From Myxococcus guangdongensis (lineage in GTDB: Bacteria; Myxococcota; Myxococcia; Myxococcales; Myxococcaceae): a stretch of 64,000 nucleotides of DNA. The position numbers and the translations under genes are program-made. The stretch is from the NCBI RefSeq assembly GCF_024198255.1, contig NZ_JAJVKW010000009.1:372001-436000 (forward strand), given 5' to 3'. Under the pieces are notes generated by a model that was given only the letters and a program-made list of their open reading frames with translations, made no database searches and was not told where the DNA came from. Below, piece by piece: positions 61,910-64,000 of the stretch (the first letter of the stretch is position 1; each line of letters starts with the position of its first letter).

Positions 61910-62599
61910 ATGGCAACTAATCAAGCTGCGATTCGTGTATCCATTCTCGAAGGGCCGTTCGTGATGTGGGAGAACATCGCCGACGGTCTTCGTGGTGAGG
62001 GCGTGAGCGTGACCTCGGTGACGAGGGATGCGCGCCTGTTCCTCGACAGTCTCGGGACTGATCCGCCTCAGGTGGCGGTGATGGACGTGGAAGGAGACGG
62101 CGAAGCATCCCTGGGATGCTCCGTGACGGAGGGCATCAATCTGTTGCGCGAGGCGCGCAAGCGACGTCTGGAGGTGCGCATGCTCCTCCTGTCGGCCGTG
62201 AGCGTTCCGGAGATCATCTCCCAGTGCTTCGATGAAGGCGCCTCGGGGTATCTCTTCCGCAAGGGATTGGGCACCTCCGCGGTCTCCTCGGCCATCAACT
62301 CACTGGTGCGCGGTGAGCGGCTGTTCCCGGTCCAATTGCTGCGCAACGACTTCGAGCATCCACCGGTGACGACGCCCACCGCGAGCGTGCTCATGGCGCT
62401 CACGCAACGCGAGCGCGAGGTGCTGCAGTATGTCTCGGGCGGCGCGGACAACTTGAAGATCGCCGCGCACCTGCAAATCGCCGAGCGCACCGTGAAGTCG
62501 CACGTCACGCAGCTCTACCGGAAGCTCGGGGCCGAGAACCGCACCCAGCTCGCGCTGCGCGCGTGCCACCTGGGGGTTCGTCCGCCTCCGGACCTCTGA
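61910..62599 (+). CDS. LuxR/FixJ-type response regulator
   Basis: A 229-residue regulator. The receiver-like domain (about 8-130) keeps the phospho-acceptor position in QVAVMDVEG, a Ser in LLLLSAVS and a Lys in GYLFRKG, but the usual N-terminal acidic pair is reduced to a single Glu (ILEGP), so phosphorylation is uncertain. The LuxR HTH (about 155-220) is canonical: LTQREREVLQYVSGGADNLKIAAHL, then ERTVKSHVTQLYRKLG. No partner kinase is next to it. It is convergent with the mbtH/NRPS genes, a plausible but unproven target. ATG 61910 follows a GGGGGG run. Confidence 0.87.
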   Translation: MATNQAAIRVSILEGPFVMWENIADGLRGEGVSVTSVTRDARLFLDSLGTDPPQVAVMDVEGDGEASLGCSVTEGINLLREARKRRLEVRMLLLSAVSVPEIISQCFDEGASGYLFRKGLGTSAVSSAINSLVRGERLFPVQLLRNDFEHPPVTTPTASVLMALTQREREVLQYVSGGADNLKIAAHLQIAERTVKSHVTQLYRKLGAENRTQLALRACHLGVRPPPDL

Positions 62600-62887: not shown

Positions 62888-63070
62888 GTGAGTCACCCCT
62901 GAAAGTGGCTGCATCTTGTTCACATCCCAGGAAAATGGGTCAAGACCGCCAAAAGTAGGCTGACGCCCACTTGACCCTCTCCTGGTCGCACTGCTCCGAC
63001 AGGCTGTCTTCCGCGGCACCGTGGGTGCTGGTGCGCGAGGGCCGCCCGGCCCTGGTGTGAAACGCGGCCC

Positions 63071-64000
63071 TCATTCCCCGGAACCTCCCAGGTCCACCCA
63101 CCGCTTCACCCACTCGGTGACGGCCGGCGCTTGCAGCACCGCGACGGCGTCACCGGATGTTTCCAACATCGTCAGCCCGCCCTCGGCCAGCTCGCCCCAG
63201 CCGCCATCGAGCGCATCCTCGTCATGCTCGGGGGCGTCGGCGGCGCGCAGCAGGTGCACCGGGCCCTCGTAGGGCTCGGGCAGGTAGCGGCGCGCGGCGC
63301 GCAGGTGGCTGGCGAAGACCTTGAAGCGCGTGCGCAGCTCCGCGAGCGACAGGTCCTCGGGCAGCAGGCCCGTCTTCGCGCCCTGCTCGTGCATGAGCGC
63401 GAGCAGCGGCTCGGCGTCCTTGCCGGACGTGAGCGCGGCGGGGAACGCCGGCGCGTCGATGCCTCCTTGCGTGGCCAGGGTCCGGGCGAAGAGCGCGGCC
63501 TGCGCTCCCGCCGTCGTCGCCGCCGTGGACGCATCCGGCTCGGCGGGCAGGGGCTCGACGAGGAGCAGCTCCACGGCGTGGCCCTCGCGCTGGAGCTGCT
63601 GCGCCATCTCCCAGGCGATGTGGCCACCCAGACCCGGGCCCGCCAGGCGGTAGGGGCCCTGGGGCATCGCGCCGCGCAGCGCCTCCACGTAGAGCGTGGC
63701 CATGGCCTCCACGGACTCGAGCGGGGCACGGCCTTCCTCCAGGCCACGGGCCTGGATGCCGACCACGCTCCAGCCCTCGGGGGCGTGGCGGGCCAGCTCG
63801 GTGTAGCGCTCCACGCGGCCATCCAGGTCATGGATGACGTGCAGCACGCGGCGGTGGTCGTTGCCCGCGCGCAGCGTGACGAGCGGAGACCAGGCGGGCG
63901 TGGCGGGACGCGCCTTGGGACGCGCCTCCTGCGCCTGTGCCCGCTGCAGCAGCGCCGCGAGCGACTCCACCGTGGGCGCCTCGAAGAGGGCGCGCAGCGG
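63071..64000 (-). CDS. C-terminus of an NRPS/PKS with degenerate thioesterase, 5' end outside window
   Basis: The last 309 residues of a larger synthetase; the frame is open to the window edge. The first residues visible (PLRALFEAPTVESLAALL) are the last helix of a carrier protein. A linker leads into a type I thioesterase fold from about residue 40. The nucleophile elbow, normally GxSxGG, reads GPGLGG, so the serine is Gly. The usual GDH near the end reads GDAV, so the His is Ala. The Asp position after the elbow is Glu (LLLVEP). The domain should not hydrolyse or cyclise the product. The mbtH gene lies downstream in the same direction. Confidence 0.88.
   Translation of the reverse strand, partial: PLRALFEAPTVESLAALLQRAQAQEARPKARPATPAWSPLVTLRAGNDHRRVLHVIHDLDGRVERYTELARHAPEGWSVVGIQARGLEEGRAPLESVEAMATLYVEALRGAMPQGPYRLAGPGLGGHIAWEMAQQLQREGHAVELLLVEPLPAEPDASTAATTAGAQAALFARTLATQGGIDAPAFPAALTSGKDAEPLLALMHEQGAKTGLLPEDLSLAELRTRFKVFASHLRAARRYLPEPYEGPVHLLRAADAPEHDEDALDGGWGELAEGGLTMLETSGDAVAVLQAPAVTEWVKRWVDLGGSGE

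Follow-up and report, generated by a model that had tools for sequence, protein, structure and literature searches.

How does a nonribosomal peptide synthetase (NRPS) part with its product when the thioesterase (TE) at its end has lost the residues that do the work? This question is raised by the last kilobase of the window, a stretch of 64,000 nucleotides from Myxococcus guangdongensis (contig C9, bases 372001-436000, of an 11.2-Mb genome in 53 contigs). The gene concerned, which we call gene a, reaches into the window with the C-terminal tail of an open frame, 309 residues and a stop on the minus strand (63071..64000), and runs on without a stop to the end of the contig, for a total of at least 7068 aa. 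Seven modules, the first of them partial, are visible in it with our own profiles, followed by the TE, and the Pfam domains found in the stretches scanned are exclusively condensation (C), adenylation (A), carrier (PCP) and TE domains, which identifies it as an NRPS. The C-terminal end of the last PCP lies at 63947..64000 (minus strand), and its Ser (GGHSLLAT) is intact just beyond the window edge. Behind it, residues 55-299 (63104..63838, minus strand) match the TE family PF00975 with an E of 8.8e-22 and 78.9 bits, against a curated cut-off of 26.4, while the NCBIfam matches to this region were all far under their cut-offs.

As for the catalytic residues, the original prediction held that the nucleophile and the His were gone and that two of the three triad positions were thereby lost. 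Both losses are borne out by an alignment of 76 TE rows, of which 53 (50 distinct) lie outside the dead group and represent the TEs that we fetched rather than a census. The nucleophile-elbow position (63632..63634, minus strand) holds Gly, in GPGLGG, where these 53 rows have Ser (52) or Cys (1), and the His position (63146..63148, minus strand) holds Ala, in GDAVAV, where all 53 have His; the realignment brings neither a Ser or Cys nor a His back into place. What had been overlooked is that the acid position (63554..63556, minus strand; LLVEPLP) has changed as well, conservatively, from Asp to Glu (active rows: Asp 49/50, Glu 1/50). The domain belongs to a set of 23, hereafter dead TEs, in which a Ser/Cys nucleophile and a His are each found in none and Glu as the acid in all, the nucleophile column being occupied by Ala (14/23) or Gly (9/23). 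Since identical losses are common to 22 relatives, a chance loss of the triad is excluded. The nine dead TEs that end gene a have Gly as nucleophile and a variable residue in the former His column (Ala in five, Ser, Val, Pro and Gln in one each), and the remaining 14 have Ala, Glu and Gly at the nucleophile, acid and His columns.

The fold, by contrast with the triad, is well kept, as had been predicted. The AlphaFold2 model of the window's TE, built from a 19-row alignment, has a mean pLDDT of 86.7 and a pTM of 0.82. The closest PDB structure is the NRPS AB3403 (4zxh), with a Foldseek E of 3.9e-21 and a sequence E of 2.3e-24, and the top matches are TE domains or proteins holding one, which places the domain in the α/β-hydrolase TE fold. 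Judged by its residues, usual TE chemistry with this domain cannot release the chain from the last carrier of gene a. A separate TE could do so, and a check for one had been proposed. Among frames of at least 60 aa, our own profiles found no other TE near gene a in the stretches fetched from the nine genomes that carry the gene, which span ~13 kb downstream and 20 kb upstream in G019 and much less on one side in several others. Elsewhere in the window genome, there is a TE frame of stand-alone size (285 aa, C4:556294-556950).

To place the domain among its relatives, we searched 27 genomes of the genus, 96 of the family and 145 of the order with the internal copy of G015 as query, scoring in the family and order at most the best 24 and 16 candidates per genome, respectively, with E up to 1e-45. 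Dead TEs at 58% identity or more (E ≤7e-96) are present in 13 of the 27 genus genomes, and the next match drops to 48% (E 2e-65); no domain of comparable similarity was found outside these 13 among the matches listed for the family and order genomes. A search of genome contigs returned one distant TE match, which has Cys and His. The 23 copies comprise nine at the C terminus of gene a, nine at the N terminus of a second NRPS gene, which we call gene b, and five inside larger proteins. The original reading of a dead terminal TE had thus missed a wider pattern, and the domain now looks like a silent internal TE exposed at a cut end. All the copies form a single clade (support 100/99), within which those of gene a (100/100) and of gene b (100/100) are each a clade, and the gene b copies group with four of the five internal ones (97/85). 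Genes a and b co-occur in nine genomes out of nine (G000, G003, G005, G007, G008, G011, G016, G018 and G019), whereas internal copies are carried by G004 (two), G010, G014 and G015. In an rpoB tree of the 27 genomes, the nine with the split form make up one clade (0.971), and the four with internal copies fall elsewhere, intermixed with three genomes that have no dead TE. Because the nine are one rpoB clade, the co-occurrence of a and b counts as one history and not as nine independent ones, and it may go back to a single event.

The fused proteins show what a dead TE looks like in the middle of an assembly line. G015 and G010 each have a frame of ~16,000 aa in which five modules, the dead TE, nine modules and an active TE follow one another. 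The first such frame of G004 has five modules, the dead TE, ten modules and a TE, and the second, which is cut by the contig, has five modules, the dead TE, three modules and a TE. The internal domain is always set as PCP-TE-C. Ser is intact in the carrier in front of it, and the HHxxxDG motif is present in the C domain behind it in four of five cases, the exception (HHIISDA) being the second protein of G004. Since both the carrier Ser and the following C motif are kept, the chain must pass the internal dead TE if the line works. A model of the PCP-TE-C unit (mean pLDDT 63.4, pTM 0.40) gave no usable arrangement. We also considered that the internal copies might be recombinants with an a-like start and a b-like end, which was rejected as no such switch appeared in 40-column windows. 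The modules before the dead TE on contigs C52 and C333 of G004 are near-identical (A 97%, PCP 95%, C 90%), which suggests a recent gene conversion or duplication.

In the split clade, dead TEs stand in two separate NRPSs. Gene a has 13 modules and then the dead TE in both G018, where the frame begins at a contig edge, and G019. Three PKS proteins and a glycosyltransferase are encoded upstream of the G019 gene, together with a protein that combines C and A domains with a luciferase-like monooxygenase. Gene b starts with the dead TE, continues as C-A-PCP and so on for nine modules (G007, G019) or ten (G018), and ends in a TE with Ser and His; that of G016 has the same layout, split across two frames. 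An active TE was thus found in all four genomes in which the end of gene b is reached (G007, G016, G018 and G019), the frame leaving the contig or the fetched stretch in the other five. An MFS exporter lies upstream of gene b in all nine. In the stretches fetched before gene b (45 kb in G019, 34 kb in G018 and between 3.6 and 25 kb in the other seven genomes), frames of at least 60 aa contain no domain of the A, C, carrier or TE type. The first C domain of b resembles elongation C domains to the same degree as these resemble one another. Dead TEs stand at the C terminus of a and the N terminus of b in nine of nine genomes, as docking domains would if a and b, putative partners, work together. 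In the four genomes assembled into one or two contigs (G007, G016, G018 and G019), the two genes point in the same direction and are 1.01-1.10 Mb apart by subtraction of coordinates.

Upstream decay of gene a, which had been named as a case against the original prediction, is not seen in the part of the gene visible in the window genome: seven modules are stop-free, the last carrier keeps its Ser and all six C domains have HHxxxDG. The picture is less uniform in the relatives, since far upstream of the dead TE the gene a frame is broken in G007 (C1 ~2381-2384 kb, L044) and G016 (C1 ~4542-4544 kb, L054), with fragments of C and A domains spread over frames that overlap. A break is also present in gene b of G016 (C1 ~3415 kb, about 3414677-3421405, L101), and the stretch from G003 has two overlapping frames as well as a 100-N gap. 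These breaks may be sequence errors or real decay, and they weaken the claim of a working line in all nine species. No frame break touches the dead TE itself in any of the nine.

The dead TE has been kept by selection. By the Nei-Gojobori method, the median omega of the gene a copies is 0.29 (36 pairs, 0.16-0.40), as it is for the gene b copies, with 0.31 for the internal copies and 0.27 for the active TE that ends gene b (6 pairs). Within the last module of gene a, the A (0.15) and PCP (0.17) domains are held more tightly than the dead TE, and the C domain has 0.27. Over the nine gene a copies (tree length 1.59 dS), about 35 stop gains would be expected neutrally, a figure that assumes equal mutation rates and that GC bias would lower, and none is observed. 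The conservation has an unusual distribution. The lid subdomain (residues 157-245; 63266..63532, minus strand), whose limits we set ourselves from predicted strands, is conserved about as well as the core: the ratio of lid to core identity has a median of 1.13 between gene a and gene b copies (81 pairs, 0.97-1.29) and of 1.06 between either and the internal copies (90 pairs, 0.87-1.41), compared with 0.60 for active TEs at 40-68% identity, where 0 of 784 pairs reach 1.13 and seven reach 0.97, these pairs being non-independent throughout. For 22 active representatives, the maximum among 168 pairs is 0.97. Conservation reaches at least 95% among dead TEs but stays below 60% among active ones in 38 columns, many of which fall in the lid. 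By these measures, the dead TE is under purifying selection, strongest in the lid.

A comparison with G004 suggests how the dead TE came to be the last domain of gene a. The last module of gene a resembles the two G004 modules that precede a dead TE (A 85-88%, PCP 78-88%, C 67-72%), the next best among A domains preceding a TE being at 47%; for the last A domain of G019, the best A domain in G015 is at 65%. The resemblance extends to the neighbourhood. The original prediction had placed an mbtH gene beside the NRPS, and an MbtH-like protein of 73 aa (PF03621; 62669..62887, minus strand) does lie directly downstream of gene a, separated from its stop codon by 62888..63070 (minus strand). It is followed by a LuxR-type response regulator (about 61910..62599, plus strand, with a start codon picked by eye), which is convergent with the NRPS and conserved with the locus. 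MbtH is kept beside gene a in nine of nine loci and beside the G004 version, and both MbtH (93-100%) and LuxR adjoin the second protein of G004 as they do gene a in the nine genomes. In G004, three modules and an active TE, absent from gene a, lie between the dead TE and MbtH. The two borders of this segment can be recognized in the DNA. In all nine gene a loci, the 65-70 bases ahead of MbtH have a counterpart at G004 C52:25575-25643 (71-80%; E 5e-11 to 0.006), and the end of the dead TE matches G004 C52:14939-15038 in five of nine, with E of 1e-13 to 1e-5 in four and 0.007 in the window genome; in the remaining four loci, the dead TE is homologous to G004 at the protein level only. At most ~250 bases separate the two pieces in gene a, compared with 10.5 kb in G004. 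Such a footprint would be left by a loss in gene a or by a gain in G004. We prefer the loss, purely as a matter of parsimony, since a dead TE already inside a line explains its being dead. Probably, the domain was a silent internal one at the outset and gene a ends where the downstream part went missing.

The beginning of gene b has left no comparable trace. Its flanks share with the fused loci only the MFS exporter (49-55%), which is on the other side of the gene, so that a loss at the beginning of b would be without footprint, unlike the end of gene a. The A domain after the dead TE has a match in the fused form in three of nine b genes (62%), the other six being at 34-41%, and the first C domains of b are at 50-60% to the fused form in all nine, like other elongation C domains. 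Nor do the fused proteins correspond to a plus b module for module, with five modules before the dead TE compared with 13, and three to ten after it.

The best explanation that we can offer, with a probability of about 0.4, is that fused ancestral lines suffered complementary losses and that gene a hands its peptide over to gene b, with the dead TE as a non-catalytic element of the junction. Lines composed of modules, a dead TE, further modules and a TE would once have stood at two loci. In the split clade, these would have lost opposite parts, a its end and b its beginning, leaving a without a terminator and b without an initiator, and for this reason the peptide of a would go to b. The last carrier of gene a would pass it to the first C domain of b, in trans here and in cis in the fused relatives, the dead TE would serve as a scaffold or docking element at the junction, and the active TE of b would perform the final release. 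Transfer to another chain, which was among the routes originally listed, would thereby acquire a named candidate acceptor in gene b. The full form of this proposal, in which a and b, ~1 Mb apart, work as a single assembly line whose two proteins are linked by matching dead TEs (at the C terminus of the donor and at the N terminus of the acceptor), both derived from a silent internal TE by duplication and complementary loss, is advanced only tentatively. A distance of ~1 Mb between a and b is unusual for one assembly line and speaks against the hand-over.

Alternatively, gene a may be a line of its own, in which the dead TE is a structural cap that stabilizes the last carrier and release is left to a stand-alone type II TE elsewhere, to a small nucleophile or to spontaneous chemistry. 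Each gene does have accessories of its own: MbtH and the regulator for a, preceded in G019 by PKS modules and the glycosyltransferase, and the exporter for b. The 285-aa frame on C4 has a suitable size, and a precedent for spontaneous chemistry is found in pacidamycin synthesis, where the carrier before a dead TE loads another carrier spontaneously (PMC8748450). We nevertheless regard an independent gene a as somewhat unlikely. No other TE was found beside it in the stretches fetched, and the idea leaves unexplained both why the same domain stands at the N terminus of b and inside fused proteins, and why its lid is conserved at core level in all three positions. As a further possibility, the dead TE may recruit a trans partner, such as a tailoring enzyme, an editing thioesterase or MbtH, to the adjacent carrier, as the X domain of glycopeptide NRPSs does. 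Many of the 38 columns specific to dead TEs are in the lid, and the domain adjoins a carrier in gene a and in the internal forms. In gene b, however, no carrier precedes it, and no tailoring gene was found at all three kinds of locus: of ten non-NRPS frames compared beside the internal copies, MFS is common with b, and LuxR, MbtH and two unnamed ORFs are common with a. We consider such a platform unlikely.

The remaining two possibilities differ from these in granting the domain either no function or a catalytic one. A functionless relic of fusion, simply carried along, would fit the missing catalytic residues, the drift of the former His column among Ala, Ser, Val, Pro and Gln in gene a, the weaker constraint on the dead TE than on the adjacent A and PCP domains, and the broken upstream frames of G007 and G016. 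It is disfavoured by the omega of 0.16-0.40 over 36 pairs and by the absence of stops or frameshifts inside the domain in nine species where ~35 neutral stop gains were expected, all the more since the domain has been retained at a C terminus, where any stop would delete it, and we judge it improbable. Least of all do we expect an enzyme with unusual chemistry, for instance an acyl transferase using the Glu as general base without Ser or His. The Glu is invariant in 23 of 23, but the nucleophile column holds Ala or Gly, the His column holds Gly or varies, and the newly conserved columns include no Ser, Cys or His apart from Ser96, which is far from the elbow in sequence.

Four known systems bear comparison with the dead TE. 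NRPS docking or COM domains, which are short terminal segments, resemble the dead TE in its proposed role of joining two NRPS proteins in order and differ from it in size, the dead TE being a whole domain of ~260 residues. Active NRPS TEs (PF00975; AB3403, 4zxh) share its fold and its position behind the last PCP; the dead TE is set apart by the missing Ser and His, by Glu in place of Asp and by a lid that roughly equals the core in conservation, unlike that of active TEs. The closest precedent found is PacP of the pacidamycin pathway, an A-T-TE0 protein whose TE0 has no triad and whose aminoacyl load moves spontaneously to the carrier PacH (PMC8748450). Gene a likewise ends in a TE without catalytic triad behind a carrier. 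PacP, however, has three domains and one dead TE, whereas gene a is a multimodule line with internal and N-terminal homologues of its dead TE, and its proposed partner has a copy of its own; for a transfer of the carrier load in trans, gene b is a candidate acceptor on genomic grounds. The same paper also describes LgnA, a type II TE by which an aminoacyl group is carried from one NRPS subunit to another (PMC8748450). LgnA is similar in being a TE-fold protein engaged in translocation between subunits, but its Ser-Asp-His triad is intact and its mechanism covalent, while the dead TEs have neither Ser nor His. In the open-licence PMC literature, searched by title and the start of the abstract, we found no account of dead TEs inside NRPSs or at their N termini for this group of bacteria.

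If the hand-over is real, it shows how an assembly line, once split into two proteins, can retain its reading order by reusing a release domain without activity as the joint; NRPS engineering is in need of joints of this kind. Should there be no docking role, the finding of 23 dead TEs within a single genus, in C-terminal, N-terminal and internal positions, still calls for caution in annotation: where PF00975 is matched at the end of an NRPS, the product need not leave at that point, and the peptides predicted for such clusters may be wrong.

The modules of both genes also show internal repetition. In gene b of G019 (C1:3389514-3419897, minus strand; L083, L098), the A domains have a period of about three modules: A2, A5 and A8 all pair best with A3 of G018 (90-91%), and A3 and A6 both with A6 of that genome (78-86%), which suggests a repetitive peptide. 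In gene a of G019 (C1:4453535-4497331, minus strand), A domains 3 to 6 all have A6 of G018 as best partner (92%), so that one amino acid is probably incorporated four times in a row. Upstream of the PKS genes that precede this gene a, the A domain of the NRPS protein encoded at C1:4512293-4517329 (minus strand; L106) is split by the luciferase-like monooxygenase. Near gene b of G011, a 943-aa protein with 14 RCC1 repeats is encoded at L075:2269-5097 (plus strand).
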